From assembly GCF_014639315.1 (NCBI RefSeq), contig NZ_BMFY01000010.1:1-64000 (forward strand): 64,000 bases of DNA, read 5' to 3'. The notes beneath the pieces are model-generated. The model did no database searches. It was not told where the DNA came from and saw only the letters and a program-made list of their open reading frames with translations. This document shows, in pieces, positions 8,799-39,472 of this stretch. The position numbers were made by a program, and so were the translations under genes. Positions within the stretch are counted from its first letter, which is position 1; every line of letters starts with the position of its first letter. The stretch comes from Sediminivirga luteola (GTDB taxonomy: Bacteria > Actinomycetota > Actinomycetes > Actinomycetales > Brevibacteriaceae).

Positions 8799-9431
8799 TT
8801 AGACCTCCCTGGCGGAACGGCCGGCCGCGAACGCGGACAGCGCCCCGGATGCGGCCAGCGCCCTGACCAGCAGCCACGCGCCGAGACCGGCGAGCAGTGC
8901 GCCGGAGACGGAAGCGGTCACGGTGTAGACCGCCTGCCAGGTGAACGCCCATTCGACGTTGTACATGATGTTCTCGCTCACGCCCAGGAACAGGCCGGCG
9001 CCCAGACCGGCCAGGATCGCCACGCCGATGCCGAAGCGACGGTAGAAGAACAGCAGGAACACCAGCTCGGCGCCCAGTCCCTGGATGAACCCGGAGATGA
9101 GCACCTGGGGGCCCCACTGAGTACCGATGAGCGCGGAGACGGTGGCGGCCAGCAGCTCACAGTAGAGCGCGGCACCGGGCTTGCGGATGATGAGCGCGCC
9201 GAGCGGTCCGGCCAGGCACCACACGCCGGTAAGCAGCCCGGCGGCGGGCGGGAAGGCGGCGAACGGAACGGACATCGCCGACCAGGAGCTAGACCAGATC
9301 CAGAACAGGACACCGGTCGCGACGGCGACGACGCTCGCGACGACGATGTCGACCACTCGCCAGCGGAAACGGCCGGGCTGCGGTGCGGTGGGCTCAGGCT
9401 GTGACTGCGCGCGGGCAGCATGGGATGACAT
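8799..9431 (-). CDS. ykoE: ECF transporter substrate-binding (S) component, YkoE family
   Basis: A 210-residue membrane protein of the YkoE family, with a short hydrophilic N-terminus and about five to six hydrophobic helices from residue 28. Family-like stretches are FAAFPPAAGLLTGVWCLAGP and FIQGLGAELVFLLFFYRR. YkoE proteins are the specificity subunit for hydroxymethylpyrimidine or thiamine. The ATG at 9431 follows a perfect AGGAGG. A frame extension upstream would run through the TPP riboswitch and is rejected. First gene of the ykoEDC operon. Confidence 0.92.
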   Translation of the reverse strand: MSSHAARAQSQPEPTAPQPGRFRWRVVDIVVASVVAVATGVLFWIWSSSWSAMSVPFAAFPPAAGLLTGVWCLAGPLGALIIRKPGAALYCELLAATVSALIGTQWGPQVLISGFIQGLGAELVFLLFFYRRFGIGVAILAGLGAGLFLGVSENIMYNVEWAFTWQAVYTVTASVSGALLAGLGAWLLVRALAASGALSAFAAGRSAREV

Positions 9432-9474
9432 ACGTCCTCCTGTACATCGATAGCAGGAGGGGTGACGAGAATCT

Positions 9475-9564
9475 CGACTCCCTACGCCGGTGCTAGCCGG
9501 ATCAGGTTCGAGGGTCAGCGCCTTATGGGGCGCAATCTCAGCGCCCCCTTGTGGGCGCTCCCCT
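9475..9564 (-). promoter_or_regulatory. TPP (THI-box) riboswitch controlling ykoEDC
   Basis: Read on the minus strand the segment shows the canonical thiamine-pyrophosphate aptamer in order: an opening GGGGAGCGCCC helix, CTGAGAT, then ACCTGATCCGG, the CTAGC-ACC segment and GCGTAGGGA closing the fold. A possible -10 (TATAGT, about 9579-9584) lies just upstream. The aptamer ends about 44 bases before the ykoE start, next to its AGGAGG, so control may be by masking the ribosome site. Thiamine pyrophosphate would switch the importer off. Confidence 0.96.
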
Positions 9565-9788
9565 GTCGGTCGCCTTCCACTATAGAACACGGCGCACACC
9601 GGCGTGGCCGGATAGGCGCAGACCCCGGTGCTGGCTCCGGTTCGTGCTGGCGACCCCAGTTGCAGCCGGGCCCGTCAGCACGAACCGGGGTCGCTCGCCG
9701 TTGCGGGCAGCCGGCGCGACGGCAGCGGCCACGTCCCGCGTAGACTCGGAGCGAACCAGTCATCCCGATCACGTTCCTGGGAGGGACC

Positions 9789-10079
9789 ATGTCACAGATC
9801 GCCTGGAGAGTCGTCGGTACCGGTGGAGCCGCTCTGGCGGGGATCGCCGCGCGGAAGGTCCTCACGAAGGCCTGGGAGAAGACGACTCACCGGCCGGCGC
9901 CGGTCAACCCGCAGCAGTCCGGCGTAGGGCTGCCGGAGGCGCTGGCATGGACGATCGTCTCCGGTGTGGGCATCGCCGTGGTACAGCTGCTCGTCGAGCG
10001 CGCCGCCGCGAATTTCGTCCGGGAACGCTTCGGTGAGCAGGGGCTGCCCAAGCAGTACCGGACCCTCGAAGGACCCTGA
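9789..10079 (+). CDS. DUF4235 small membrane protein
   Basis: A 96-residue protein with the DUF4235 pattern: WRVVGTGGAALAGIAARKVL, then a WEKTTHRPAPVNPQQ segment and a second hydrophobic helix with ALAWTIVSGVGIAVVQLLVERAAA. Two membrane helices are likely. The family is common in Actinobacteria and has no known function. A GGGAGGGACC ribosome site precedes the ATG. It is a single gene between the thiamine transport operon and the ohrR-like gene. Confidence 0.85.
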   Translation: MSQIAWRVVGTGGAALAGIAARKVLTKAWEKTTHRPAPVNPQQSGVGLPEALAWTIVSGVGIAVVQLLVERAAANFVRERFGEQGLPKQYRTLEGP

Positions 10080-25897: not shown

Positions 25898-26788
25898 CTA
25901 CCCGTCCTCGCGGACCGCGTCCTCCCCTGCCTGGGCGGCGCCGGCGCTGCGCAGCCCGGCGAGCTTGGCCTTCATCTCCGTCAGCCGGTCCAGCCGGTCC
26001 GGCCCGCCGTGCATCGCCGCGCTGGTGGCCAGGATGTCGATCACGACCAGGCCGGCGATCCGGCTGATCGTCGGGGTGTACAGATCCGTGTTCTCCAGGG
26101 TGGGAGTGCGGATCACGATGTTCGCCGTCTCCGCCAGCGGGCTCGGTTCCGAACCGGTGATCGCCACGCTCCGAGCGCCGTTGGCGGCGACCTCCTCCGC
26201 CACCCGGAGCAGTTCCGGCGTGCGACCGGTATAGGAGATGAGGAAGAACAGCTCATCCGGCTGCGCGGAGGCCGCCTCGATGAACTGCTGGTGACCGTCC
26301 GCGAGCGCATTGCACGGCTTGTTGAACAGCGGCGCCTTCTGGGCCGCGTCGAAGGCGATCGTCGACGAGGCACCCATCCCGTAGAAGTGCAGGCTGCTGG
26401 CGGCCAGGATCGCCCCGAGGGCTTCCTCGATGGCCGCTGCGTCGATGGTCTGGCGGGTGTGGCCCAGGCTGGAGATGGTGTGATCGAAGATCTTGCCGGT
26501 CACCGTCGTGACGGAGTCGTCGGACTCGATCGCCGAATGGGTCGCCGGCACGCCGAGCGCCAGGAACTGAGTCATCCGGCGACGGAAGTCCTGGAACCCC
26601 GACAGGCCCATGCTGGCGCAGAACCGGATCACGGTCGGCTCGCTGACCTCGCTGGCGGCGGCCACGGCGGCGAGCGTCGAGTCGACGACCTGCTCCGGGT
26701 GGGCCAGGACATGGCGGGCGACCCGCTGCTCGGCGCGGCTCAGGTGCGGCAGCGCGTCCGAGATCTGCTGGACGAGTGGAGCTGTCAT
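25898..26788 (-). CDS. MurR/RpiR-family transcriptional regulator with SIS domain
   Basis: A 296-residue regulator: an N-terminal HTH_6 (about 1-80, with LAAVAAASEVSEPTVIRFCASMGLSGFQDF) and a C-terminal SIS sugar-phosphate domain (about 115-260, with LHFYGMGASSTIAFDAA and FFLISYTGRTPELLRVA). RpiR proteins respond to phosphorylated sugars. ATG 26788 has AGGTGAT upstream. It is the last gene of the left-going operon and probably controls both arms through the two sites at 30051 and 30135. Confidence 0.92.
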   Translation of the reverse strand: MTAPLVQQISDALPHLSRAEQRVARHVLAHPEQVVDSTLAAVAAASEVSEPTVIRFCASMGLSGFQDFRRRMTQFLALGVPATHSAIESDDSVTTVTGKIFDHTISSLGHTRQTIDAAAIEEALGAILAASSLHFYGMGASSTIAFDAAQKAPLFNKPCNALADGHQQFIEAASAQPDELFFLISYTGRTPELLRVAEEVAANGARSVAITGSEPSPLAETANIVIRTPTLENTDLYTPTISRIAGLVVIDILATSAAMHGGPDRLDRLTEMKAKLAGLRSAGAAQAGEDAVREDG

Positions 26789-26843
26789 CGTCGCGTCATC
26801 ACCTGTTCGATGTCGTGGTGACGTGGCGGTCGCACGCACCGGC

Positions 26844-27776
26844 TCAGCTTCCGCGCAGCGCCGCGAGGAGATTGCCCACCGCGGCGGAGGTGGCGCGGCT
26901 CACGCTCTCGGAAGTATATCCACCGAGGTGAGGCGTGGGCAGGACGCGAGGATGCCGTAACAGCGCCGATGCCGGCGGCGGCTCGACGTCGAAGGCGTCC
27001 ACCGCATAGGCCGCGACCTGGCCACCGTCGAGCGCGGCCAGCAGCGCCGCGGCGTCCACCAGGCCCTCCCGGGCCGTGTTGATCAGGATGAGGCCCGGTC
27101 GGCACCGCGCAAGGAACGCCGCGTCGATCAGCGGCCGCTCCCGCGGCGGGCAGTGCAGGGTGATCACATCGGCGCGGGCCGCCAGTTCCTCCAGGGGAAG
27201 GAGCTCGGCGTCCTGGTGCGAGGTCAGGACCGGATCGTGCGCCACGACGGCGGCGCCGAAAGCCGCGGCGATCCTGGCCACCCGCGCGCCGATGGCGCCC
27301 ATGCCGATCACGCCCACGGTCTTGCCGTTCAGTTCCGCGCCCGGGCTCCGGGACCAGCCGCCGGCCCGCAGCGCCGCCATGCCCTCCAGATGGCCGCGCA
27401 GAGCGGTGAGCATCTGCAGGAGGGCGAGTTCGGCCACGCCCTGCGCATTGGCGCCGCGCGCGGTGAGCACGCTGATGCCGCACTCCTCGGCGGCGGCGAG
27501 GTCGATCGCGTTCGTGCCGATCCCGTTCCTGGAGATCGCCCGCAGCTGCGGATGCGCCCGCAGCAGGGCACCGTCGATCCGCTCGACGCCGGCCAGCCAG
27601 CCGACGACACCGGGCAGCAGCGCCTCCAGCTGGTCCCTGCCGGGCGCTTGCCCCGCGGGACCGCTCACCAGCTCGTACCCGGCCGCACGGAGAGGCGCCA
27701 GTTCAGGGACCGCGTCCAGACCCTGCGAGGTCAGCGAGCGCGGAGTGACCAGGACGCGCCCCGGGCCGGCGGTCAT
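26844..27776 (-). CDS. D-2-hydroxyacid dehydrogenase (phosphoglycerate dehydrogenase-like)
   Basis: A 310-residue NAD-dependent 2-hydroxyacid dehydrogenase. The nucleotide-binding motif is VGVIGMGAIGARVARIA. The catalytic Arg, Glu and His lie in NTAREGLVD, DAFDVEPPP and TPHLGGYTSES. No regulatory ACT domain is present, so it is not a full-length biosynthetic SerA. The context points to a catabolic role, for example reduction of a 2-keto acid released by the aldolase or oxidation of a sugar acid. It overlaps the shikimate-dehydrogenase-like gene by 4 bases (ATGA). Confidence 0.9.
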   Translation of the reverse strand: MTAGPGRVLVTPRSLTSQGLDAVPELAPLRAAGYELVSGPAGQAPGRDQLEALLPGVVGWLAGVERIDGALLRAHPQLRAISRNGIGTNAIDLAAAEECGISVLTARGANAQGVAELALLQMLTALRGHLEGMAALRAGGWSRSPGAELNGKTVGVIGMGAIGARVARIAAAFGAAVVAHDPVLTSHQDAELLPLEELAARADVITLHCPPRERPLIDAAFLARCRPGLILINTAREGLVDAAALLAALDGGQVAAYAVDAFDVEPPPASALLRHPRVLPTPHLGGYTSESVSRATSAAVGNLLAALRGS

Positions 27777-28738
27777 CGGGCCGCCGCCGCCAGGTCGGAG
27801 AGGACGTCGAAATCAGGACCGGAGGTGGGGATCTCGGTGTCGAACACCTCGGCGATGACCCGGGTCCAGCCGTGGATGAAGTACACCCAGCCGTCCTCGA
27901 CGCGCAGCCGGCGCTCCTGCTGCTGCGCCCGCGCCTGGTCCAGGAAGACCAGATCGCCGCGATAGTTCAGGTCCCAGGCGATGCCGTCCACCGGGAACAG
28001 CGCCTCACCGCTCAGCGGCGAGCCCGGCGCGTCCTTGCCCAGTCCCGTGGCGTTGACCACGACGCTGCCGGCCGGGAGCGCGGAGACGATGCGGTCGTTG
28101 TCGCCGGGCTCGGGCGTGAGTTCCAGCTGCAGCGGCACCTCGGTGCCGAAGGAGGAGTAGATCTCCCGCAGGCCGTCGAGGCGGTCCTGGCTGCGGTTGC
28201 TCACGATGATCCGGTCCGGGACGTTGCTGCCGCGCTCCGGGCGGCTCAGGTGCCAGCTCAGCGCGATGGCCGAGCCGCCGGCGCCCATCAGGAACGCGGT
28301 GCGCCCCTCCCATTCGGTCGTGATGGCGTCGATCGCGAACCCCGCCGTGATGGGGTCCTTGGCGTGGGCGCGGAACAGGCCGTCTCGCTTGGAGATGCAG
28401 CTGACCTCGTCCATCAGGAGCGCGAGCGGATCGGATTCGTCGAACAGGTCCCGCGCCGCGTGGTACAGGTCGAGCTTGTGGGTGGTCACCAGCGCGCCCA
28501 GGCTCAGCTCGTCGTGCTTGAGGAACTCCACGACACGGCGGTAGTCGGCTGGATCGGCGTGCAGGGGCAGGTCGATTCCGGCGAAATCGACATCGCCCAG
28601 GCCCAGATGCTCGGCCCAGACGGGGAAGACCCGGCGGATGGACGACTGCCCGGTGCTCACGCCGATGAAGTAGAACGTCGGCTTGGCGGCCGGACGCAGG
28701 CTCGAGGCGGTGTAGGTCAGTGCGGTGGTCTCTGTCAC
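27773..28738 (-). CDS. Shikimate/quinate dehydrogenase-like enzyme of unknown substrate
   Basis: A 321-residue protein related to shikimate dehydrogenases. The N-terminal substrate domain starts with TFYFIGVSTGQSSIRRVFP (in place of the usual SxS shikimate site) and includes the conserved-looking lysine in GALVTTHKLDLY. The Rossmann domain has TAFLMGAGGSAIALSWHL and IIVSNRSQDRL. It is longer than AroE and sits in a sugar operon without aromatic genes, so I doubt it acts on shikimate. It likely oxidises a polyhydroxylated carbocycle or sugar acid. GTG start in a GTGA overlap with the aldolase gene. Confidence 0.82.
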   Translation of the reverse strand: MTETTALTYTASSLRPAAKPTFYFIGVSTGQSSIRRVFPVWAEHLGLGDVDFAGIDLPLHADPADYRRVVEFLKHDELSLGALVTTHKLDLYHAARDLFDESDPLALLMDEVSCISKRDGLFRAHAKDPITAGFAIDAITTEWEGRTAFLMGAGGSAIALSWHLSRPERGSNVPDRIIVSNRSQDRLDGLREIYSSFGTEVPLQLELTPEPGDNDRIVSALPAGSVVVNATGLGKDAPGSPLSGEALFPVDGIAWDLNYRGDLVFLDQARAQQQERRLRVEDGWVYFIHGWTRVIAEVFDTEIPTSGPDFDVLSDLAAAAR

Positions 28739-29412
28739 GGGAGATCCTCTCGGGGTGAGGACGCGGCGACGGCGTCCGAGGCGAGGGCGGCGATGCCGTT
28801 CCAGTCGCCGGCGGCGATGAGCTTCTCCGGAGCCAGCCAGCTCCCTCCCACCGCGCGCACCCCGGGGATGGACAGCCAGTCGGAGAGAGAGCCGGGGCCG
28901 ATGCCGCCGGTCGGGATGAACGACGGTTCCAGCCGGCGGAACGGGGCCAGCAGCTGCCGCAGCGCGCCCCGGCCGCCAGCGGCCTCGGCGGGGAAGAACT
29001 TCAGGGTCCGATACCCCTGGGCCAGGCGCTGCTGGGCCTCGGCCGCGGTCGCGACGCCGGGGATGTAGGGCAGGCCGGCCTCTGCCGCGGCGGCCTCCGT
29101 CTGGGGGTCCCAGCCGGGGCTGATGCCGAAACGCGCACCGGCGTCCACGGCACGCCGGACGTCGTCCGGGGTGAGCAGGGTACCGGCGCCCACGCGTGTC
29201 TGCGGGCAGGAGGCCGCGATGGCCTCGATGGCTTTAGCGGCCTCGGCGGTACGGAAGGTGATCTCCACGGCGGTGATACCGCCTTCGGCCAGCGCCTCCG
29301 CCAGCGGCACGGCCGCAGCGGCGTCGTCCAGGGAGACGACGGGGAGGACCCGGACGGGGCCGAGTGCCGCATCGACGGCCGCCGGCGGTACCGGGGTCGT
29401 GCCGGCGCTCAT
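28735..29412 (-). CDS. eda: KDPG/KHG-type aldolase
   Basis: A 225-residue class I aldolase of the Eda family. The Schiff-base lysine is K138 in TLKFFPAEAAGG, the catalytic glutamate is E50 in AVEITFRT, and VGAGTLLTPDDV and FIPTGGIGPGSL are conserved phosphate-site regions. The family splits 2-keto-3-deoxy-6-phosphogluconate, or related 2-keto-3-deoxy acids and 4-hydroxy-2-oxoglutarate. Coupled to the cupin isomerase gene by ATGA. It is probably the carbon-carbon cleaving step of this cluster. Confidence 0.93.
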   Translation of the reverse strand: MSAGTTPVPPAAVDAALGPVRVLPVVSLDDAAAAVPLAEALAEGGITAVEITFRTAEAAKAIEAIAASCPQTRVGAGTLLTPDDVRRAVDAGARFGISPGWDPQTEAAAAEAGLPYIPGVATAAEAQQRLAQGYRTLKFFPAEAAGGRGALRQLLAPFRRLEPSFIPTGGIGPGSLSDWLSIPGVRAVGGSWLAPEKLIAAGDWNGIAALASDAVAASSPREDLP

Positions 29413-30020
29413 CGGCTCTCCGTGTAGCCGCGGTGGTCCGGGTTCGGCACGGCCTTCCAGCCGCCGGCGCCGTCGTCGACGATGAGGGTCTTCATGCCTC
29501 CCGCGCGGGCGATCAGCTCATAGTCCTGGCCCGCATCGGTGGCGTAGGTGAAGAGGGTGACGAAGGGCTGGTCGCCGACGTTCACGCTGCGGTGGATCCA
29601 GTCGCCGGGCACGTTCACGGCCACGCCCGGGGTGAGTTCCACCGCCTCCGTCTGGCCGTCCAGGGTCTCCAGCAGCATGACACCGTGCCCGGAGAGGCAG
29701 TGGTAGAGCTCGGCGCGGTTGGCGATCCGGTGCAGGTGACCGCGGGTGACGGCGAACTCCTGGCCGTAGCGTCCCGGCAGCAGGGTCGAGGTGCCGATGG
29801 TCAGGGCGCCCTCGTGGGCTCCGTAGTCTTGGGAGTCGACCTGGTAGACCAGCTCGTCCGGGCCGCGCCCGGCGAGGGCGGCGCGGTACGCCTCGGCGTC
29901 CCGGTACACCCCGTCCATGTCCCCCAGGTGCTTGGTGTACCGGCCGGTGCGGCCGGTCATCACGCCGTCCGGGCTGATCTGGACGCGTGCAGGGTGGTCC
30001 GGCTGGTCCTTCTGGTCCAT
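29409..30020 (-). CDS. Cupin-type phosphoglucose isomerase-like protein
   Basis: A 203-residue protein matching the cupin-type glucose-6-phosphate isomerase family. The metal ligands are visible: the His pair and Glu in TRGHLHRIANRAELYH, and the last His in NVPGDWIHRSVN. Also typical are DAGQDYELIA and the closing PNPDHRGY. Such enzymes interconvert phosphorylated aldoses and ketoses with a divalent metal. First gene of the leftward operon, with GGAGAGG upstream of its ATG. In this cluster its substrate may be a different sugar phosphate. Confidence 0.88.
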   Translation of the reverse strand: MDQKDQPDHPARVQISPDGVMTGRTGRYTKHLGDMDGVYRDAEAYRAALAGRGPDELVYQVDSQDYGAHEGALTIGTSTLLPGRYGQEFAVTRGHLHRIANRAELYHCLSGHGVMLLETLDGQTEAVELTPGVAVNVPGDWIHRSVNVGDQPFVTLFTYATDAGQDYELIARAGGMKTLIVDDGAGGWKAVPNPDHRGYTESR

Positions 30021-30050
30021 GTGAGTGTCCTCTCCGCTGAAAACAACTTC

Positions 30051-30063
30051 GTAGTAACGCTAC
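30051..30063. promoter_or_regulatory. RpiR-type operator, site 1
   Basis: GTAGTAACGCTAC, an imperfect inverted repeat of GTAG/CTAC, lies 31 bases before the leftward operon's first ATG. It matches the reverse complement of site 2 at 12 of 13 positions and resembles the TGTAGT-N-ACTACA form bound by RpiR/HexR regulators. Confidence 0.75.
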
Positions 30064-30134
30064 AGTATCAGCCGCAATTGAGGGCATATCCGGCCCCATA
30101 TCGGGCACTACGGCGCAAAACGGGGTATACATAT

Positions 30135-30147
30135 GTAGCGTCACTAC
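30135..30147. promoter_or_regulatory. RpiR-type operator, site 2
   Basis: GTAGCGTCACTAC lies 40 bases before the SDR start and is inverted relative to site 1. It overlaps an AT-rich stretch (TATACATATG) that is the probable core promoter of the rightward operon. The 84-base distance between sites is eight helical turns, so looping or joint binding is possible. Confidence 0.75.
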
Positions 30148-30186
30148 TTTATGATGGCTGCGAGACCGTGATTTCAAGGGGGAAAG

Positions 30187-30912
30187 ATGACGGAGCAGAG
30201 CTCGTCCCGATGCGTGGCGATCACCGGCGGCGCCGGCGGGATCGGACAGGCCATCGCGGCGCATCTGGAGCGGCTCGGCCGCCGGGTGTACGTGCTCGAC
30301 CGCGAGGGCGCTCAGACCCGGACGGGTGTCTTCGTCCCGTGCGACGTCCTCGACCGGGACAGCGTCGATGCCGCCGTCGAGACCGTCTATCAGGACGACC
30401 CCGGACCGATCGACCTGATCTGCGCGGCCGGGATCGTCGAGGACGACGTGGCCGCCGAGGACCTTCCCGAGGACCTGGTGCACCGGGTCATGGGCGTGAA
30501 CTTCCACGGCACCTTCTCCGCCTGCCAGGCCTTCGGCCGGCGGCTCCTTGACCACGGCACCGGCTCGATCGTGCTGATCTCCTCCATGTCGGGGAACCTG
30601 GTCGTCAACTACCCCCAGCGGCAGAGCATCTACAACTCCTCCAAGGCCGCCGTCACCGCCCTGGCGAAGTCGCTCGCCGTGGAGTGGGGCCCGCGCGGCG
30701 TCAGGGTCAACGCCCTCTCTCCGGGATACGTGGACACGCCGCTCAACAGCCTCAAGGCGCATATGCACGAGGGCTGGCGCGCCGGCACCGTCCTGGGCCG
30801 GTTCGCCAGCACGCAGGAGATCGCCGACGCCGCCGAGTTCCTGCTCTCCGACCGCGCCTCCTACTGCACCGGGACGGAACTCGTCGTCGACGGAGGGTAC
30901 TCGCTGCGATGA
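30187..30912 (+). CDS. SDR-family NAD(P)-dependent oxidoreductase
   Basis: A 241-residue classical short-chain dehydrogenase. The cofactor loop is TGGAGGIG (13-20). The catalytic triad is Ser in ISSMSGN (about 133-135), Y149 and K153 in YNSSK, and the end has YCTGTELVVDGGYSL. Relatives oxidise sugars, polyols or 3-oxo compounds. First gene of the rightward operon. It overlaps the kinase gene by ATGA. Confidence 0.92.
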   Translation: MTEQSSSRCVAITGGAGGIGQAIAAHLERLGRRVYVLDREGAQTRTGVFVPCDVLDRDSVDAAVETVYQDDPGPIDLICAAGIVEDDVAAEDLPEDLVHRVMGVNFHGTFSACQAFGRRLLDHGTGSIVLISSMSGNLVVNYPQRQSIYNSSKAAVTALAKSLAVEWGPRGVRVNALSPGYVDTPLNSLKAHMHEGWRAGTVLGRFASTQEIADAAEFLLSDRASYCTGTELVVDGGYSLR

Positions 30913-32480
30913 TCACCTCCCCTTCCGGCACCCCGGGTCCATCCGGCGCCCCTGGCCCGTCCGGCTCTCCCAGCCCTTCCGTGCACGCCGATCTCGTCAT
31001 CGCCCACGACCTCGGCACCACCGGCGACAAGGCCTCCCTGGTCACCCGCGAGGGCCGCATCCTCGGCTCGGTGACCGTCGGCTACCCCACCGGATTCTCC
31101 GAGGACGGCCGCGCCGAACAGGACCCTCAGCGCTGGTGGGACGCGTTCTGCCAGGCCAACCGGACGCTGCTGGACCGGCTCGGCGAATCACCCGAGCGGG
31201 TCCGGGCGGTCAGCTTCTCCGGGCAGATGATGGGCGCCGTGCTGATCGACGCACACGGGCAGGCCACCCGGCCGGCCATCATCTGGGCGGACACCAGATC
31301 CAAGGCCCAGTGCGCGCGACTGCTCGACCGCGTCGGCATGGAGCGCGTCTACGCCATCACCGGCCATCGCGCCAACCCCACCTACTCCCTCTCCAAGCTC
31401 ATGTGGATCGCCGATCACGAGCCGGAGGCCCTCGAACGCGCCGTCGCGTTCCTCAACCCCAAGGACTACCTGGTCCGGCGTCTCTGCGGCGTGCACGTGA
31501 CCGACCCCTCGGACGCCTCCAGCACGAACGCCTTCGACCAGCGCGGCGGGCAGTGGAGCCAGGAGCTGATCGAGGCCTCCGGGCTCGATGCAGGCATCTT
31601 CCCCGAGGTAGTCGCCTCCAGCACCGACATCGGCCCCCTCCTCCCGGAGCTGGCGCCGGAGACGGGCCTGTCCCCCCGCACCCGCGTGGTCCTGGGCGGC
31701 GGCGACGGCCCGATGGGCGCCCTGGGCGCCGGCCGGCTGGACGAATCGGACGGCCTCTACGCCTACCTCGGCTCGTCCTCGTGGGTGTCCTTCGCCAGCG
31801 CGCAGCCGCTGCACGACCCGCTGATGCGTTCCATGACCTTCACCCACGTGCTGCCCGGCTCCTATGTGCCCACCGCGACGATGCAGACCGGCGGCGCGGC
31901 GCTGGAGTGGATCGCCGGCGTCCTCGGGGACGGCAGCGACGACCCCTACGGACCGCTGCTGACCGAGGCCGCACGGGTTCAGGCCGCCGCCGAGGGGCTG
32001 TTCTTCCTGCCGCATCTGCTCGGCGAGCGCGCCCCGTACTGGAACCCCAGCGTCCGGGCGACCTTCACCGGCCTGACGATCACCCACGGCCGCGGGCACA
32101 TGACCCGCGCGGTGCTGGAAGGCGTCGCCTTCAACCTCAGGACCGGCCTGCAGGCGTTCGCCGACGCCGGCCACGCCTTCGACGCCGCCGACGTCATCGG
32201 CGGGGCCAGCAAATCCGAGGTCGTCCGGGGCATCCTCGCCGACACCTGGCAGCTGAGCGTGACCCCCAGCGACATCGGAGATCACGCGACCTCCCTCGGC
32301 GCCGCCGCCATCGGCGCGCTCGGCAGCGGCCTGATCGGCGCGGAGGATCTGCGGCCGTTCCTGGGCGAGCACCGGGGCGAGCCGCTCGCGCCCGCCCTTC
32401 CCGCCGCCGAGCGGGACCGCCGGTACGAACGGTTCCTCGACGCGTACCGGCGGCTCGAAGGGTGGTTCGAGCAGGCATGA
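30909..32480 (+). CDS. FGGY-family carbohydrate kinase (xylulokinase-like)
   Basis: A 523-residue FGGY kinase. The phosphate-binding start is AHDLGTTGDKASLV, the catalytic Asp is in VLGGGDGPMGALGAG, and GGASKSEVVRGILAD is the C-terminal adenosine region. Members phosphorylate ketoses and polyols (xylulose, ribulose, erythritol and others). Unusually, the first 25 residues are a collagen-like Pro-Ser-Gly repeat encoded by a triple 18-bp repeat. Coupled to genes on both sides by ATGA overlaps. Confidence 0.92.
   Translation: MITSPSGTPGPSGAPGPSGSPSPSVHADLVIAHDLGTTGDKASLVTREGRILGSVTVGYPTGFSEDGRAEQDPQRWWDAFCQANRTLLDRLGESPERVRAVSFSGQMMGAVLIDAHGQATRPAIIWADTRSKAQCARLLDRVGMERVYAITGHRANPTYSLSKLMWIADHEPEALERAVAFLNPKDYLVRRLCGVHVTDPSDASSTNAFDQRGGQWSQELIEASGLDAGIFPEVVASSTDIGPLLPELAPETGLSPRTRVVLGGGDGPMGALGAGRLDESDGLYAYLGSSSWVSFASAQPLHDPLMRSMTFTHVLPGSYVPTATMQTGGAALEWIAGVLGDGSDDPYGPLLTEAARVQAAAEGLFFLPHLLGERAPYWNPSVRATFTGLTITHGRGHMTRAVLEGVAFNLRTGLQAFADAGHAFDAADVIGGASKSEVVRGILADTWQLSVTPSDIGDHATSLGAAAIGALGSGLIGAEDLRPFLGEHRGEPLAPALPAAERDRRYERFLDAYRRLEGWFEQA
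30921..30974. repeat. Three tandem 18-bp repeats at the kinase N-terminus
   Basis: Three in-frame copies of an 18-bp unit starting CCTTCCGGCACCCCGGGT encode PSGTPG, PSGAPG and PSGSPS. They stand between the kinase start codon and the conserved domain. FGGY kinases normally begin within a few residues of the DxGTT motif, so the segment is an added disordered tail. Confidence 0.85.
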
Positions 32481-33457
32481 TCGTCCGCACCGTGCAGGGG
32501 GACGTCGCGCCGGGCTCCCTGGGTCCGGCCGACTACCACGAGCACTTCTTCCACACCACTGCCCTCCTGCCGGGAGAGGACCTGGACGACGAGGAACGCG
32601 CCCTGGCCGAGGCACGCCTGGTGCACGCGGCCGGGCTGCGCACCGTCGTCGACGCCACCCCCATCGGGATCGGCCGGCGCCCCGCCGCGCTCGCACGCGT
32701 CGCCCGCGGCTCCGGCCTGACCATCGTCGCGGCGACCGGAGCACACCGTGAGGCGCACTACCCCTCCGGCCACTGGCTGCGGGAGCTGGACGCCGGCGCG
32801 CTGGCGGCGCTCTTCGTGCGGGACCTGACCGAGGGCATGCCGGCCCAGGACGAGCCCGGCTCGCCGTCTGCCGCCGCCACGGACGTCCGTGCCGGTTTCA
32901 TCAAGACCGGCATCGGCTACTGGTCCGTCTCCGCCTTCGAGTCCACCGTGCTGGAGGCCGCAGCGCAGGCCCACCACCGGACCGGTGCCGCCGTGATGGT
33001 GCATCTGGAGCACGGCAGCGCCGCCCACGAGGTGCTCGACCGCCTCGCCGCGCTCGGGGTGGCGCCCTCCCGGGTGATCCTGGCGCATATGGACCGCAGC
33101 CCGGACCGGATCCTCTTCGCCGAACTGGCCTCGCGGGGTGCCTTCCTGGGCTGCGACGGCGCCGCCCGCCTGAAGGAATGGCCCGAGGCGATGCTGATCG
33201 ACGCCATCGGCGCAGCCATCGCGGCCGGAGCCGGCGACCGCATCCTGATCGGCGGCGACGTCGCGCGCCGGAGCCGCTTCACCAGCTATGCGGGCATGCC
33301 CGGCATGGCGTATCTCCCGCGGCGCTTCCTCCCCCGGCTCCGGCAGGTCATCGGTGACGACGCCGCCGACCGGCTCCTGGTGGCCAATCCCGCCGCCGCC
33401 TTCACCATGAACGATGCGCCGGAGAGCACCGGCACCGACCCAGAGAGGTACGCATGA
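32477..33457 (+). CDS. Phosphotriesterase-family hydrolase (probable sugar lactonase)
   Basis: A 326-residue amidohydrolase of the phosphotriesterase-like group. All metal ligands are seen: H21 and H23 in DYHEHFF, bridging K143 in FIKTGIGYW, H176 in MVHLEHG, H204 in ILAHMDRSPD and D261 in IGGDVARRS. PTE-like proteins often hydrolyse lactones, so it could open a sugar lactone formed by one of the dehydrogenases. It sits between the kinase and a zinc dehydrogenase, with ATGA overlaps on both sides. Confidence 0.9.
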   Translation: MIVRTVQGDVAPGSLGPADYHEHFFHTTALLPGEDLDDEERALAEARLVHAAGLRTVVDATPIGIGRRPAALARVARGSGLTIVAATGAHREAHYPSGHWLRELDAGALAALFVRDLTEGMPAQDEPGSPSAAATDVRAGFIKTGIGYWSVSAFESTVLEAAAQAHHRTGAAVMVHLEHGSAAHEVLDRLAALGVAPSRVILAHMDRSPDRILFAELASRGAFLGCDGAARLKEWPEAMLIDAIGAAIAAGAGDRILIGGDVARRSRFTSYAGMPGMAYLPRRFLPRLRQVIGDDAADRLLVANPAAAFTMNDAPESTGTDPERYA

Positions 33458-34515
33458 GCCGCACCATCCGCCGAGTCATCGTGCCCGCCCCCGACCGGAT
33501 CGAGATCGAGGACGTCCAGGCGCCGGTACCTGCTGCCGGGGAGGCACTCATCTCCCTCCGCACCGCCGGGGTGTGCGGCAGCGACCTGCATGCCGTCGCC
33601 GGGCACCATCCCTGGGTCCCGCTGCCCTACGCGCCCGGGCACGAGGTCGTCGGGATCGTCGAGGCGGCACCCGAGGACGCTCAGCTGCGCCCCGGCGACC
33701 GGGTCATCGTCGAGCCCACCCTGCCGTGCTGGGAGTGCAAGCCATGCCGCCGGGGCGATCAGAACCTCTGCGAGCGCCTGCGCTTCTTCGGCTGCGGCTA
33801 CGAGCAGGGCGGCATGGCGGACCTGTTCACCGTGCCGGCCAACCGGCTGCACCGGATCGACGAACGGCTCAGCGACGCCGAGGGCCTCATGATCGAGCCC
33901 CTGGCCACACCCGTGCATGCCGTCCGCCTGGCCGCCTCCGGGCTCACCGGCGAGGCAGCCAGGAACCACGGCGGCGATCTGCGCGGCAAGCGCGTCGTCG
34001 TCCTCGGCGCCGGCACGATCGGCCTGCTGGTGCTGATCGCCGCACGGCATCTGGGTGCCGACGGCGTCGTCGTCACGGACCTGTCCGCCTCGAAACGCGA
34101 GCGGGCGCTGCGCCTGGGCGCCGCGGCCGCGCTCGACGCCGGGCGGGACGACATCGCCGCCGCGGTACGCGGCGAACTCGGCGAGAGCGCGGACATCGTC
34201 TTCGACTGCGTCGCCGCCACCCCGACCCTGGGGCTCGCGGTCGAGCTGGCCCAGCGCGGCGGCACCGTCGTCATCGTCGGCGTGCCCTCCGAGGGGACGG
34301 CCCTGCCGCTGCCGATCGTGCAGGACCGCCAGGTCCGCGTGCAGGGCGCCGCGACCTATCTGCCCGCCGACTATCAGGAGGCCGCCGGGATCATCGCCGG
34401 CGGCGGGGTGCCCGAGGACGAGTTCATCTCCGGCACATTCCCCCTGGCGCAGGCGGCGGAGGCGTTCGCCGCGGCACGCGAGCGGGAGACGGTGAAAGTC
34501 CTGATCACCGGCTGA
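33454..34515 (+). CDS. Zinc-dependent dehydrogenase (sorbitol/threonine dehydrogenase-like) 1
   Basis: A 353-residue medium-chain dehydrogenase. The catalytic-zinc site has CGSDLH and GHEVVG. The structural zinc cysteines are in LPCWECKPCRRGDQNLC. The cofactor motif is VVVLGAGTIGLLVL. Polyol and sugar dehydrogenases of the sorbitol dehydrogenase group share this layout. Last of four genes linked by ATGA overlaps. The transporter genes follow after 149 bases. Confidence 0.92.
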   Translation: MSRTIRRVIVPAPDRIEIEDVQAPVPAAGEALISLRTAGVCGSDLHAVAGHHPWVPLPYAPGHEVVGIVEAAPEDAQLRPGDRVIVEPTLPCWECKPCRRGDQNLCERLRFFGCGYEQGGMADLFTVPANRLHRIDERLSDAEGLMIEPLATPVHAVRLAASGLTGEAARNHGGDLRGKRVVVLGAGTIGLLVLIAARHLGADGVVVTDLSASKRERALRLGAAAALDAGRDDIAAAVRGELGESADIVFDCVAATPTLGLAVELAQRGGTVVIVGVPSEGTALPLPIVQDRQVRVQGAATYLPADYQEAAGIIAGGGVPEDEFISGTFPLAQAAEAFAAARERETVKVLITG

Positions 34516-34664
34516 CCGCCGGCGGGCGTGCCCGAGGCGGCCGCCGGAGAGAACGCCGAACAGAACACAGCACCGACGCCGCGGCCCGCGCCGCGGCGCA
34601 CAGCACCACACGACACGACCGTCCGGGCGTGACGACCACGCACGCACGGACGCAAAGGGGCGTT

Positions 34665-36206
34665 ATGGAACACGAACACGACCGCGGTGGCCCCGCCACC
34701 GCCGAACCGGCCTTCCGGATCTCGCATCTGACGAAGACGTATCCGGGCGTCACCGCCCTCGACGACGTCACCCTGGAGGCCTATCCGGGCGAGGTGCTGG
34801 CGATCTGCGGCGCCAACGGCGCCGGCAAGTCCACGCTCTCCAAGCTCCTGGCCGGCCAGGAGCGGCCCACGGCCGGCGGCGTCACCGTCGCCGGCTACGA
34901 CGGGGAGATCACCGATCCGTCCTCCGCCATCGACGCCGGCGTGCTGTTCATGCACCAGGAGCCCCTCGTGATCGAGGACTTCACGGTGGAGGAGAACGTC
35001 TGGCTCACGCAGATCAGCAAAGCCGGCCGTAACCGCCCGTGGAACCTGGTGCGCCGGCACCGGCGCGAGCAGACGCTCGAGGCGCTCGCCGCGGTGGGGA
35101 TGCGCAATGTGCCGCTCTCCGCCCGTGCCGGGCAGCTGGGTCCCGGCCCCAGGCAGATGCTCGCGCTGAGCCGCACCCAGGTGAACCCACACCGGATCCT
35201 CATCCTGGACGAGACCACCGCCTCCACCACCGAGGATCACTTCAAGGACGTCCTCGCCCTGGTGGACCGGGAACGGGCGGCGGGCGTGTGCGTCATCTTC
35301 GTCTCGCACCGCATGGACGAGGTGTTCGCGATGGCCGACCGCATCGCGGTGCTCCGGAACGGCGCCCTGGTGGACACCGTGGTGGCGAGCGAGGTGAGCC
35401 GTGACGATGTCATGACCCTCATGATCGGCGAATCCGTGATGGCGCTCGAACCGCCGCAGCCGCTCCCCCAGGCCGAGCGAGCACCCGTGCTGCGGGTGGA
35501 CTCGCTCTACGCCGGCGCCGCACGGGCGATCGACCTGGACGTGGCCGCCGGGGAGATCGTGGGTCTGTACGGGCTCGTCGGCAGCGGCCGCAGCTCGGTC
35601 GCGCGGGCGATCTCCGGGAACCAGGAGACCGAATCCGGCTCGATCGAACTGCACGGCAAGGCCCGCACGTTCCGGTCCAACCGCGACGCCATCGCCGCCG
35701 GGATCGTCTACGTCTCGGAGGACCGCAAGCGCGAGGGGTTCATCCCCAGCTTCGCCAACGGGCAGAACATGACGCTCAGCACGCTGGGGGCGTACTCCTC
35801 CCTGGGCGTCATCGACCTCGGCAAGGAGCGCGCCCGCACCCGCGAGCTGATCGACGAGTACGCCGTCAAGGGCGGCACGGAAGGCCTCACGGTCGCCCTC
35901 TCCGGGGGCAATCAGCAGAAGGTCTGCCTGGCCAAATGGCTGGAGGCGGACCCGGACGTCGTGGTGCTCGACGAGCCCACGAAGGGCATCGACATCGGTG
36001 CCCGCCTGACCATCTACACCATCATCCGGCGGCTGGCCGAGCAGGGCAAAGCCGTCATCGTCGTCTCCAGCGAGGCGGAAGAGCTCCTTTCCCTGTGCCA
36101 CCGCGTGCTCGTCATGCGCGACGGCCGGATCGTCTCGGAGCACGCCTCGCAGGACAGCGCGACGGATCAGATCATCAGGGCCGCCCTGGGAGGAGAAGCA
36201 GCATGA
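34665..36206 (+). CDS. Sugar ABC transporter ATP-binding protein (RbsA-like, two ABC domains)
   Basis: A 513-residue ATPase with two domains. The first has Walker A GANGAGKST and a weakened signature (QLGPGPRQMLALSR in place of LSGGQ). The second has a diverged Walker A (GLVGSGRSS), but a good LSGGNQQKVCLAKWL signature and VVLDEPTKGID. This asymmetry is normal for the RbsA/MglA class. It energises monosaccharide uptake. AAAGGGG precedes the ATG. Overlaps the permease gene by ATGA. Confidence 0.93.
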   Translation: MEHEHDRGGPATAEPAFRISHLTKTYPGVTALDDVTLEAYPGEVLAICGANGAGKSTLSKLLAGQERPTAGGVTVAGYDGEITDPSSAIDAGVLFMHQEPLVIEDFTVEENVWLTQISKAGRNRPWNLVRRHRREQTLEALAAVGMRNVPLSARAGQLGPGPRQMLALSRTQVNPHRILILDETTASTTEDHFKDVLALVDRERAAGVCVIFVSHRMDEVFAMADRIAVLRNGALVDTVVASEVSRDDVMTLMIGESVMALEPPQPLPQAERAPVLRVDSLYAGAARAIDLDVAAGEIVGLYGLVGSGRSSVARAISGNQETESGSIELHGKARTFRSNRDAIAAGIVYVSEDRKREGFIPSFANGQNMTLSTLGAYSSLGVIDLGKERARTRELIDEYAVKGGTEGLTVALSGGNQQKVCLAKWLEADPDVVVLDEPTKGIDIGARLTIYTIIRRLAEQGKAVIVVSSEAEELLSLCHRVLVMRDGRIVSEHASQDSATDQIIRAALGGEAA

Positions 36207-37228
36207 CCACAGCCACCGGAACCGAGACGGCGGGCAGGAAGACGCCGTCCGGAGGCACCCGCCCCTCCCTGGGATGGGGCTGGGTGAAGGACCAGTACCC
36301 GATCATCATCCTGGTCCTCCTCCTCATCGTCGCCGCATTCAGCACCGACGCGTTCTTCACGCCCAGGAACCTGACCAATCTGGTGGTCCAGGTGTCCGTC
36401 ATCGGCATCGTGACCCTGGCCCAGTTCATGATCATCGTCACCGCCGGCATCGACATCAGCGTCGGCTCGGTGGTGGCGCTGGCCGGCGTCACCTGCGCCA
36501 TGCTCTACGGGGGCCAGAGCGTCGTCCTGGCGATCCTCGTCGCCGTCGTCGTCGGGGCGCTGTGCGGCTCCTTCACCGGATATCTCGTCTCCTTCCGGGG
36601 ACTCGAGCCGTTCATCGTGACACTGGGCATGATGGCACTGGCCCGCGGCATCGTGTACGCCACCACCGAGGGCTCGCCCGTGACGCCCGCGGCGGAGAAC
36701 TTCCGCGTCATCGCCACCACGACCATCGCCGGGGTCCCCCTGATCGCCCTCATCTGGCTGGGCCTGGCGCTGGTGATCGGCTTCCTGATGAAGCGGACCG
36801 TCTTCGGCCGGCGCATCTACGCGATCGGCTCCAGCAAGGACGCCGCCCGCGCCTCCGGCATCCCGGTCGAGCGGACCCTGTTCCTGGTGTACATGCTCGC
36901 CGGCGCCATGGTCGGCTTCGCCGGCTTCCTGCTCACCGCGCGCGTCGGCGCCGCGACCCCCACCGCCGGCAATCTGTACGAGCTGGACGCCATCGCGGCG
37001 GTCGTCATCGGCGGCGCCGCCCTGGCCGGTGGCCGCGGACGCGTCCTGGGCGCGGTCGTGGGCACGCTGATCCTCGGCGTGATCACCAACCTGCTGGTCC
37101 TGCTGAACGTCTCCACGTACATGCAGGACGCCTTCCGCGGCGGCCTGATCCTGTTCGCCATCATCCTCACGACGGTCAGCTTCACCCGCCGGAAGCGCAA
37201 GAACGCCGTCGTACCCGCCAGCACCTGA
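36203..37228 (+). CDS. Sugar ABC transporter permease (RbsC-like)
   Basis: A 341-residue BPD_transp_2 permease with eight to ten helices. Typical RbsC-class parts are MIIVTAGIDISVGSVVALAG, GLEPFIVTLGMMALARG and AIGSSKDAARASGIPV (the ATPase-coupling loop). A 35-residue hydrophilic N-terminus precedes the first helix. GGAGGAG precedes its ATG. Confidence 0.94.
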   Translation: MTTATGTETAGRKTPSGGTRPSLGWGWVKDQYPIIILVLLLIVAAFSTDAFFTPRNLTNLVVQVSVIGIVTLAQFMIIVTAGIDISVGSVVALAGVTCAMLYGGQSVVLAILVAVVVGALCGSFTGYLVSFRGLEPFIVTLGMMALARGIVYATTEGSPVTPAAENFRVIATTTIAGVPLIALIWLGLALVIGFLMKRTVFGRRIYAIGSSKDAARASGIPVERTLFLVYMLAGAMVGFAGFLLTARVGAATPTAGNLYELDAIAAVVIGGAALAGGRGRVLGAVVGTLILGVITNLLVLLNVSTYMQDAFRGGLILFAIILTTVSFTRRKRKNAVVPAST

Positions 37229-37299
37229 GCGCGCCGGCCGGCGCGCTCTCACCCACCCGCCGGACACAGAGGTCCGGCAGTCGAAACACGGAGGAGAAC

Positions 37300-38319
37300 A
37301 TGAAACGCAGCAGCACCCCGTTCCACCGGTTCGCCGGCGTCATCGCCGCCGGGGCCGTGCTCACGCTGACCGCCTGCGGCTCGACGGACGACGTCGGCGG
37401 CGCCTCGGCCAGCGAGGAGAAGGACGTCTCGGAGATCACCATCGGCTTCCTCCAGCGGCAGCTGGACGCCCCGTTCTACTCCGCCATGGTCGACATGATG
37501 GAGGGCATGGCCGAGGAGCAGGGCTTCAGCCTCCAGGTGCAGAACGCCTCCGGCGATCCGGTGACGCAGCTGGACCAGGCTCAGACCATGCAGGCCCAGG
37601 GCGTCGATGCGATCATCATCAACGCCATCAGCCCGGAGACGCAGCGCGCGCAGCTCGACTCCATCGCCGAGAGCACCCCGCTGATCTTCGTCGACACCGG
37701 CATCCCGGACGTCGGCGTCACCTCGGTCACCTCGAACAACCACGAGAGCGGCCGGATGTCCGGTGAGCTGACCGCCAAGCGCTTCGAGGAGGGCGAGGAG
37801 ATCACGGTGGCCATCCTCAACGGCGGCGCCAACGACGAGATCGTCGGCCCGGCCCGGCAGGCCGGCTTCCTCGAAGGCCTGGAGAACGGCGGCATCGAAT
37901 ACGACATCGTCGCCGAGACGCCCGCGGTCTGGGCGCAGGACCGCGCCGTTCCGGCCACCGAGAGCATGCTCTCGGCCAATCCCGATGTGGACCTGATCCT
38001 GGGCCTCAACGACGCCATGGCGCTCGGCGCCCTGACGGTGCTGCGCGACCAGGGCAACGAGGACACCCTGGTGGCCGCCTCGGCCGACGGCCAGAAGGAG
38101 GCGCTGGAGGAGATCCAGAACGGCGGCTGCGACGGCCAGTACGTCTCGACCGGCCTGAACTCGCCTGATCTGGCTGCCGAGCGCAGCATGGAGATCGCCA
38201 TCCAGATCGCCACCGGCCAGGCGACCGCCGAGGACTTCGAGTCCGAGGAGTTCACCCAGGCCGCCGGCATCGACTGCGACAACGTCGACGAGTTCTACGA
38301 TCCGGAGAGCGTCTTCTGA
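37300..38319 (+). CDS. Sugar ABC transporter substrate-binding lipoprotein (RbsB-like)
   Basis: A 339-residue periplasmic-binding-protein type 1 with a signal peptide ending in the lipobox LTAC. The mature part has the RbsB-family pattern: TIGFLQRQLDAPFYSAMVD, QAQGVDAIIINAIS, a NDAMALGALTVL segment and YVSTGLNSPDLAAE. Pentoses, hexoses or polyols are the usual ligands; aromatic residues that stack on sugar rings (F, W) are present but do not decide the substrate. Ribosome site GGAGGAG. Confidence 0.93.
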   Translation: MKRSSTPFHRFAGVIAAGAVLTLTACGSTDDVGGASASEEKDVSEITIGFLQRQLDAPFYSAMVDMMEGMAEEQGFSLQVQNASGDPVTQLDQAQTMQAQGVDAIIINAISPETQRAQLDSIAESTPLIFVDTGIPDVGVTSVTSNNHESGRMSGELTAKRFEEGEEITVAILNGGANDEIVGPARQAGFLEGLENGGIEYDIVAETPAVWAQDRAVPATESMLSANPDVDLILGLNDAMALGALTVLRDQGNEDTLVAASADGQKEALEEIQNGGCDGQYVSTGLNSPDLAAERSMEIAIQIATGQATAEDFESEEFTQAAGIDCDNVDEFYDPESVF

Positions 38320-38396
38320 TCCGTCCACCCGTCCCACGCGGGCCGGCACGCATCGGCACGGTCGCATCGCGCGTCTGTGCCGGCGGGTGCCGGCCC

Positions 38397-38424
38397 GTGC
38401 CCATATCTGTGCCCGTATCTGTGC
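38397..38424. repeat. 12-bp tandem repeat before the last dehydrogenase
   Basis: GTGCCCATATCT and GTGCCCGTATCT stand head to tail, followed by a GTGC start of a third copy, in the 127-base spacer between the binding-protein and dehydrogenase genes. Confidence 0.6.
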
Positions 38425-38446
38425 GCTACGAGGAAAGCGAGAGAAG

Positions 38447-39472
38447 ATGAAAGCCGTCGTCTACTCGGCACCTGAGACCTACCAGGTCCGCGAGGTGCCC
38501 GATCCCGTCCCCGCCGCCGGCGAAGTGCTCATCCGGGTGGAGCGTGCCGGTGTCTGCGGAACGGACCTGCATCTGCACAAGGGCGAGTTCGGGCCGGTCT
38601 ATCCGCTGGTGCCCGGGCACGAGTTCACCGGGACCGTCGTTGACGCCGCCGGTGACGTCGAGGACATCGCCGTGGGCGCCCGCGTGGCCGTGGACAACAC
38701 GGTGGCCTGCGGCTCGTGCGCGGACTGCCGCCGGGCCCGCCCGGCCTACTGCCGCCGGCTGGTGGCCTACGGCGTGAACGCCCCGGGCGGTTTCGCCGAG
38801 CTGGTCACGGTGCCGGCGGCGCGCTGCTTCCCGGTGGACGATCTGGTCCCGGACGTCGCCGTGTTCGCAGAACCGGCCGCCTGCGTCGTGCACGGCCTGG
38901 ACGTCCTGGATCCGGCGCCGGGCGCCTCGGCGCTGCTGTTCGGCGCGGGACCGACCGGGATCATCCTGGCGCAGCTGCTGAAGTCGCTCGGCGGGGTCGG
39001 CGATCTGACGGTGGCCGCGCCCTCGCAGCCGAAGCTGGACCTGGTCCTGGAGCGCGGTGCCGATGCGGTGGTCCGGATGGACCGGCAGGATCCGGCCGCA
39101 GCCCTGCGGACGCTGGAGCGCCGGGCGCCCGAGGGCTTCGACATCGTCATCGATGCGACCGGATCGACCTCCGTGCTCGAACTGACCGTGCCGCTCACCC
39201 GTACCGGCGGCACGATCATGGTGTACGGCATGACCGCGGAGAGCGCGCGATGGCCGGTTCCCTCCTACGAGGTGTTCCGGCGGGAGCTGACCGTCAAGGG
39301 CTCCTTCGCACAGCAGTTCTCCTTCGACCGGGCGATCGGGGTGCTGCGTTCCGGTGCTGTGGACACGACGGGAGTGATCACCCATCGCTTCGGCCTGGAG
39401 GAGTACGCCGAGGCGCTGAACGCCGTGGGCGACAGCGCCTGCATCAAGGCCGTGATCCAGCCGGGATCCTAG
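38447..39472 (+). CDS. Zinc-dependent dehydrogenase (sorbitol dehydrogenase-like) 2
   Basis: A 341-residue medium-chain dehydrogenase with the GVCGTDLHLHKG and GHEFTG zinc-site segments, four structural-zinc cysteines in VACGSCADCRRARPAYC, and the cofactor loop LLFGAGPTGIILAQLL. Sorbitol, arabitol and other polyol dehydrogenases look like this. ATG 38447 is preceded by GAGAGAAG. Last gene of the rightward arm. As a terminal transporter-linked gene, it may catalyse the first oxidation of the imported sugar alcohol. Confidence 0.91.
   Translation: MKAVVYSAPETYQVREVPDPVPAAGEVLIRVERAGVCGTDLHLHKGEFGPVYPLVPGHEFTGTVVDAAGDVEDIAVGARVAVDNTVACGSCADCRRARPAYCRRLVAYGVNAPGGFAELVTVPAARCFPVDDLVPDVAVFAEPAACVVHGLDVLDPAPGASALLFGAGPTGIILAQLLKSLGGVGDLTVAAPSQPKLDLVLERGADAVVRMDRQDPAAALRTLERRAPEGFDIVIDATGSTSVLELTVPLTRTGGTIMVYGMTAESARWPVPSYEVFRRELTVKGSFAQQFSFDRAIGVLRSGAVDTTGVITHRFGLEEYAEALNAVGDSACIKAVIQPGS

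Follow-up and report, generated by a model that had tools for sequence, protein, structure and literature searches.

A conserved enzyme core in a divergent Sediminivirga luteola gene island may form a parallel Entner-Doudoroff-like pathway

We analyzed a 64,000-nucleotide stretch of the Sediminivirga luteola genome (contig NZ_BMFY01000010.1 of NCBI RefSeq assembly GCF_014639315.1, positions 1 to 64,000; the window), which carries a divergent island of 13 carbohydrate genes at 25898-39472. The core of this island comprises an AroE-fold, shikimate-dehydrogenase-like enzyme (SDHL), a cupin phosphosugar isomerase (cGPI), a D-2-hydroxyacid dehydrogenase (HADH), a 2-keto-3-deoxy-6-phosphogluconate (KDPG) aldolase of the Eda family, an FGGY kinase and a lactonase, and we propose, with a probability of about one half, that it constitutes a parallel, non-orthologous Entner-Doudoroff-like pathway. 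The gene grouping far exceeds chance, and the same genes surround SDHL in dozens of unrelated genomes, with the core spread over at least eight bacterial phyla, bearing out the claim of the original prediction that these enzymes belong together. All 13 genes that it listed are present, in the families it named (five on the minus strand, eight on the plus strand; Table 1). It had also been unable to match them to a described route, and we likewise found none for the set in the open-licence literature, NCBIfam, Pfam or the PDB; the same literature held no matching pathway for phospho-lactone substrates or for 5-ketofructose or 3-deoxyglucosone catabolism.

A genome scan for SDHL recovered 75 loci in Actinobacteria, Alpha- and Betaproteobacteria, Spirochaetes, Planctomycetes, Verrucomicrobia, Firmicutes, Chloroflexi and further groups. 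Many of these loci come from metagenome bins, and genes in the relatives were called mechanically. On the strand of SDHL and no more than 4 kb from it, cGPI was found in 64 loci and HADH in 61. Clustering of the neighborhood genes placed cGPI, HADH and a lactonase with SDHL in most loci. The FGGY kinase and KDPG aldolase accompany SDHL in over half of the loci, and the dehydrogenases and transporters change from locus to locus. Protein-distance correlations, which are indicative only, were 0.80 between SDHL and HADH, 0.86 between SDHL and the KDPG aldolase and 0.35 between SDHL and the transporter ATPase. S. luteola is alone among 60 genomes of its family in having an SDHL cluster. The nearest relatives lie in Leucobacter, where one locus (L022) matches the gene order of the island, with ADH1-PTE-FGGY-SDR and cGPI-KDPG-SDHL-HADH-RpiR, and has the same transporter type, at 55-75% identity. 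Rhizobium leguminosarum plasmids show the same divergent design, with a cGPI-(eda)-SDHL-HADH-MBL-RpiR core. This distribution suggests that the island has moved horizontally.

We infer the substrates and the order of the steps as follows. The RbsABC transporter would import a polyol or ketose, SDR or ADH enzymes would oxidize the polyol to a ketose, the FGGY kinase would phosphorylate the ketose, and cGPI would convert the ketose-phosphate to an aldose-phosphate. SDHL, in place of Zwf, would then oxidize C1 to yield a lactone-phosphate, which the PTE-family protein (a UlaG-like protein in other phyla), in place of Pgl, would open to an aldonate-phosphate; HADH would oxidize C2 of this product to a 2-keto acid, at the position that Edd occupies in the Entner-Doudoroff pathway, and the Eda-like aldolase would cleave the 2-keto acid to a C3 keto acid and glyceraldehyde-3-phosphate. 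Import, oxidation, phosphorylation, isomerization, lactone opening and aldol cleavage, all foreseen in the original prediction, thus keep a place in the scheme. The classical pathway (Zwf-Pgl-Edd-Eda, HexR-controlled) likewise runs from a sugar-phosphate through a lactone, an aldonate and a 2-keto-6-phospho acid to aldol cleavage, and it shares with the island the Eda family and a HexR/RccR-like regulator and operator. It differs in that the island has a cupin isomerase, an AroE-fold dehydrogenase and a PTE/UlaG-like lactonase for Pgi, Zwf and Pgl, and in that an oxidation would replace the Edd dehydration; neither the Zwf nor the Pgl family was found among the cluster genes scanned. A Thermotoga-type inositol route was rejected (IolM matches of 149 and 176 bits against a cut-off of 450, and no IolG or IolO in the cluster), and we discounted routes for erythritol, threitol, xylose, ribose and apiose, none of which is known to combine a cupin isomerase, an AroE-fold dehydrogenase and a KDPG aldolase.

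Catalytic residues are retained in the cluster enzymes examined (SDHL, HADH, cGPI, PTE and Eda). R236, E265 and H283 of HADH are conserved in 61 of 63 relatives. In two loci (L033 and L050), HADH is absent and the core run ends instead with a GlcD-family flavin adenine dinucleotide (FAD) oxidase. GlcD-family oxidases convert D-2-hydroxy acids to 2-keto acids; because of this replacement, the HADH step most likely oxidizes a 2-hydroxy acid and feeds the aldolase, so that HADH probably works in the oxidative direction, and its alternative assignment as a hydroxypyruvate reductase was downgraded. The core forms a single SDHL-cGPI-HADH-Eda-MBL run in three spirochaetal loci (L063, L064 and L072), and with HADH acting on C2 and Eda last, SDHL alone would remain for oxidation of C1.

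SDHL itself has no Pfam match, only weak NCBIfam matches (E about 4e-8) and at most 32.8 bits against curated AroE models with cut-offs of at least 200. Its AlphaFold model (pLDDT 92.4) matches AroE structures (E 1.2e-16), a structure prediction that confirms the shikimate dehydrogenase fold, and the catalytic pair K88 and D128 is invariant across 40 sequences. SDHL shares this fold and Lys/Asp pair with AroE/YdiB and with 5-ketofructose reductase (7cok), which shows that an AroE-type fold can act on a hexose. It differs from them in identity (about 17%), in its sugar context and in having invariant C-terminal motifs of its own, NYRG and the DGWVYFIHGW region. A separate SDHL paralogue, 43% identical, is encoded on contig C9 of the same genome (locus L096, 40000-59000; gene at 8866-9849 of the locus) beside 6-phosphogluconate-dehydrogenase-like, 6-phospho-3-hexuloisomerase (over cut-off), phosphoenolpyruvate-hydrolase-like and inositol-monophosphatase-family genes; this is a further sugar-phosphate cluster, as yet unassigned.

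The lactonase slot was profiled in 81 loci: it holds a PTE-family protein in 17, a metallo-beta-lactamase (MBL)-fold protein in 43 (one a weak match), both in none and neither in 21, many of which are truncated. The hypergeometric p value for this exclusivity is 2e-7 under an assumption of independent loci that does not hold. The MBL-fold profile matches UlaG, the L-ascorbate-6-phosphate lactonase (E 2.8e-19), an enzyme that itself opens a 1,4-lactone phosphate; it differs in setting, as the window has no UlaG-like protein and no ascorbate pathway genes were recognized in the clusters looked at. Characterized PTE relatives from M. synoviae and M. agalactiae hydrolyze pentono-1,4-lactone-5-phosphates (PMC10971088). 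Lactone opening had been pictured as a parallel branch, but the either/or occupancy of one slot places it in line and on a phosphorylated lactone, mainly because two unrelated folds with phospho-lactonase members share that slot.

The window's PTE protein has the fold and metal ligands of the phospho-furanose lactonases MS53_0025 and MAG_6390 (3msr/3ovg) and of 3pnz, its closest solved relatives; the ligands H21, H23, K143, H176, H204 and D261 are present in 14 of 14 sequences, and the binuclear site is retained. In contrast, it falls far below the cut-off of the phospho-furanose lactonase model NF045706 (136 against 630 bits). Opposite the phosphate contacts reported for MS53_0025 (K217, K244, Y245, R275 and Y278) it has R207, K233, E234, R264 and R267, keeping the three basic positions of the five and losing both tyrosines, to Glu and Arg. 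The MBL-fold reading frame is extended C-terminally, to 433-447 amino acids, in eleven proteobacterial loci (L051, L052, L056, L057, L065, L066, L070, L078, L081, L083 and L091), and in both of those scanned (L066 and L070) the extension is a low-molecular-weight protein-tyrosine-phosphatase domain.

The metal ligands of cGPI (H95, H97, E104 and H143) are present in 57 of 57 sequences, and the protein matches PfPGI structures (E 1e-37). The kinase barely passes the XylB model, but no XylA-family protein was found among the cluster genes scanned, and the island has several enzymes beyond those of a xylulose/xylitol route. Kinases at SDHL loci come from several FGGY clades, the alphaproteobacterial one passing the glycerol kinase (GlpK) cut-off. 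The xylulokinase-like kinase and the known pentono-lactone activity of PTE relatives would suit a pentose version of the route, in which a pentitol passes through pentulose-5-phosphate, pentose-5-phosphate, pentono-1,4-lactone-5-phosphate and pentonate-5-phosphate to a 2-keto acid that is split into a C3 keto acid and glycolaldehyde phosphate. We judge this improbable, since the cupin isomerase, the HexR/RccR-like regulator and the Eda-like aldolase belong to hexose-6-phosphate or KDPG families and no gene for glycolaldehyde phosphate was recognized in the actinobacterial clusters.

The aldolase carries the active-site motifs EITFR, LKFFPAE, PTGGI and GGSWL. All 17 genomes that lack a local Eda gene encode the family elsewhere, compared with 8 of 14 control genomes, so that the aldolase step seems to be required, with a housekeeping Eda able to fill in. 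As for Edd, the S. luteola genome has none (its best TIGR01196 score is 247 bits against a cut-off of 708, and the two IlvD/EDD proteins are both IlvD), and only 7 of 28 SDHL genomes have one over cut-off, with one further genome having it in pieces. No IlvD/Edd homologue was found in 94 neighborhoods, in a search that was not exhaustive for enolase-superfamily and other dehydratases. The usual route to KDPG is therefore absent here. Conversion of an ordinary sugar to KDPG by a hidden dehydration, through an enzyme encoded elsewhere or an unrecognized activity of a core enzyme, would agree with the KDPG type of the regulator and aldolase and with the presence of Edd in those 7 SDHL genomes; given the lack of homologues in the neighborhoods and the lack of Edd in S. 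luteola itself, we think it quite unlikely. The same Edd-free genome has two further KDPG-aldolase-family genes (C18:33397-33960 and C2:276875-277402). In a Firmicutes bin, a gene that follows SDHL-cGPI-PTE-Eda-HADH (L085:14135-15160) matches a model of a KDPG aldolase/sugar kinase fusion over its kinase portion.

The two arms diverge from a 166-bp gap that contains a predicted operator pair, CGTAGTAACGCTACA and TGTAGCGTCACTACT, of the TGTAGT-N3-ACTACA type. Each has two mismatches to the 12-base consensus, and the expected number of sites that good in the entire window is 0.16. Of the 12 loci whose regulator falls in the same cluster, 11 have intergenic sites of this type with at most two mismatches, versus 2 of the 58 other loci. 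Pseudomonas RccR binds a TGTAGT/ACTACA palindrome, of which aceE has two copies spaced by 68 bp, and its ligand KDPG weakens this binding (PMC5489143). The island's regulator shares with RccR the paired 15-bp palindrome, the RpiR family and, by eye, the SIS-domain serines; it differs in lacking, also by eye, one of two DNA-contact arginines, and in its proposed target, a catabolic island rather than aceEF and the glyoxylate shunt. Its effector is predicted to be the substrate of the aldolase, KDPG or a close analogue, and the regulator would repress both arms via the paired operators until a KDPG-like 2-keto-6-phospho acid builds up. The two arms are probably co-regulated because both flank the pair. 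This shared operator pair also speaks against the view that two pathways adjoin by chance, one for polyols on the plus strand and an unrelated one for acid sugars on the minus strand. Such a view would agree with the independent movement of transporter and ADH genes relative to the core, but it is highly improbable, since the FGGY kinase and lactonase are joined to the core elsewhere, for example in the single-strand FGGY-cGPI-HADH-PTE-SDHL-ADH-Eda run of L076.

Several points weigh against an Entner-Doudoroff-like core. The loci are linked by descent and transfer, and their counts are not independent; C1 oxidation by SDHL is assigned by elimination; the regulator's sequence scores below the HexR cut-off (Table 1); and kinases vary between phyla, so that the phosphorylated carbon may vary too. 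The UlaG-like/phosphatase fusion of alphaproteobacterial loci is hard to square with a product that keeps its phosphate. Finally, known KDPG aldolases require a 3-deoxy 2-keto acid, which the chain supplies only from a 3-deoxy substrate or via an unseen dehydration.

With a 3-deoxy sugar as substrate, the HADH product would be KDPG itself, pyruvate would be released and each step would fit with no need of a dehydratase, whereas from a normal hexose the chain would lead to a 3-hydroxylated 2-keto acid and then to hydroxypyruvate. One candidate is 3-deoxyfructose, the reduction product of 3-deoxyglucosone, which arises from Maillard chemistry. Here the 3-deoxyketose would be phosphorylated, isomerized, oxidized by SDHL to a 3-deoxyaldono-lactone-6-phosphate, opened and converted by HADH to KDPG. 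We put forward only tentatively that the cluster is dedicated to such 3-deoxy hexose catabolism across phyla; if true, this would account for all core enzymes, the absence of Edd, the use of housekeeping Eda and the KDPG-type regulator. The regulator, the aldolase family and the apparent housekeeping Eda use favor a 3-deoxy substrate over a normal hexose. The same order of steps on an ordinary hexitol or hexulose, with HADH forming 2-keto-hexonate-6-phosphate and the aldolase yielding hydroxypyruvate and glyceraldehyde-3-phosphate, strikes us as rather unlikely. Polyol-type dehydrogenases do flank the core, and the closest solved relative of the RbsB-type protein is Veis_2079 (4ry9), reported as a D-talitol complex, a match that leaves ordinary hexitols as candidates. 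However, no glycerate kinase adjoins the core in any locus (the single match lies about 7 kb off, in L022), the usual handling of hydroxypyruvate is missing from the clusters, and where no aldolase is encoded locally it would fall to housekeeping Eda to release hydroxypyruvate; no KDPG aldolase is known to do so well.

Outward from the gap, the minus arm runs cGPI, KDPG aldolase, SDHL, HADH and RpiR, and the plus arm SDR, FGGY, PTE, ADH1, RbsA, RbsC, RbsB and ADH2. The tight coupling originally ascribed to both arms holds for three strings joined by 4-base overlaps (HADH-SDHL-KDPG-cGPI, SDR-FGGY-PTE-ADH1 and RbsA-RbsC) and breaks at gaps of 58, 134, 71 and 127 bp, so that neither arm is an unbroken coupled string. 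ADH1 and ADH2 were rejected as essential components, as one locus (L027) has the core, transporter and regulator without either. ARAGORN calls a tRNA-Pro(cgg) at 26133-26209 on the minus strand, within the RpiR gene, which Rfam does not report and which is probably spurious. Elsewhere in the window, a thiamine pyrophosphate (TPP) riboswitch at 9462-9574 (minus strand) scores above the Rfam gathering score.

Table 1. Genes and predicted operators of the island, in window coordinates
Feature	Position	Strand	Basis
RpiR-family regulator, HexR/RccR-like	25898..26788	-	HexR subfamily NF008451 236 bits, cut-off 296; PF01418, PF01380
HADH, D-2-hydroxyacid dehydrogenase, 3-phosphoglycerate-dehydrogenase-like; proposed aldonate-phosphate C2 oxidation	26844..27776	-	PF02826, PF00389
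SDHL, AroE-fold dehydrogenase; proposed aldose-phosphate C1 dehydrogenase	27773..28738	-	AlphaFold model, AroE structure match
KDPG aldolase (Eda family)	28735..29412	-	TIGR01182 216 bits, cut-off 156
cGPI, cupin-type glucose-6-phosphate isomerase family	29409..30020	-	PF06560 119 bits, cut-off 20.7
Operator 1 (predicted), CGTAGTAACGCTACA	30050..30064	none	two mismatches to 12-base consensus
Operator 2 (predicted), TGTAGCGTCACTACT	30134..30148	none	overlaps promoter-like site 30126-30155
SDR dehydrogenase; proposed polyol or ketose oxidoreductase	30187..30912	+	PF13561 178 bits
FGGY kinase, xylulokinase-like; proposed ketose kinase	30909..32480	+	PF00370, PF02782; TIGR01312 380.6 bits, cut-off 380.25
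PTE-family protein; proposed phospho-lactonase	32477..33457	+	PF02126; nearest solved 3pnz, 3msr
ADH1, Zn-dependent dehydrogenase, peripheral	33454..34515	+	PF08240, PF00107
RbsA-type ATPase	34665..36206	+	sugar ABC ATPase families
RbsC-type permease	36203..37228	+	reading frame and position; homologue in matching island of L022, L027
RbsB-type binding protein	37300..38319	+	model pLDDT 88.5; nearest solved 4ry9, E 2.5e-23, 28% identity
ADH2, Zn-dependent dehydrogenase, peripheral	38447..39472	+	PF08240, PF00107

If the proposed pathway is correct, many phyla can reach a KDPG-like intermediate by another route, one whose enzymes before the aldolase are all unrelated to the classical ones. As these enzymes are few and probably soluble, the route would be amenable to reconstruction in vitro. 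An AroE-fold protein would be a sugar-phosphate dehydrogenase, an activity that to our knowledge is not known for this fold. A dehydrogenase family for which neither Pfam nor NCBIfam has a model would gain a function, as would the PTE-family and UlaG-like members of dozens of genomes and HexR-like regulators outside the Proteobacteria. The pathway might also reveal bacterial use of Maillard-derived deoxy sugars.

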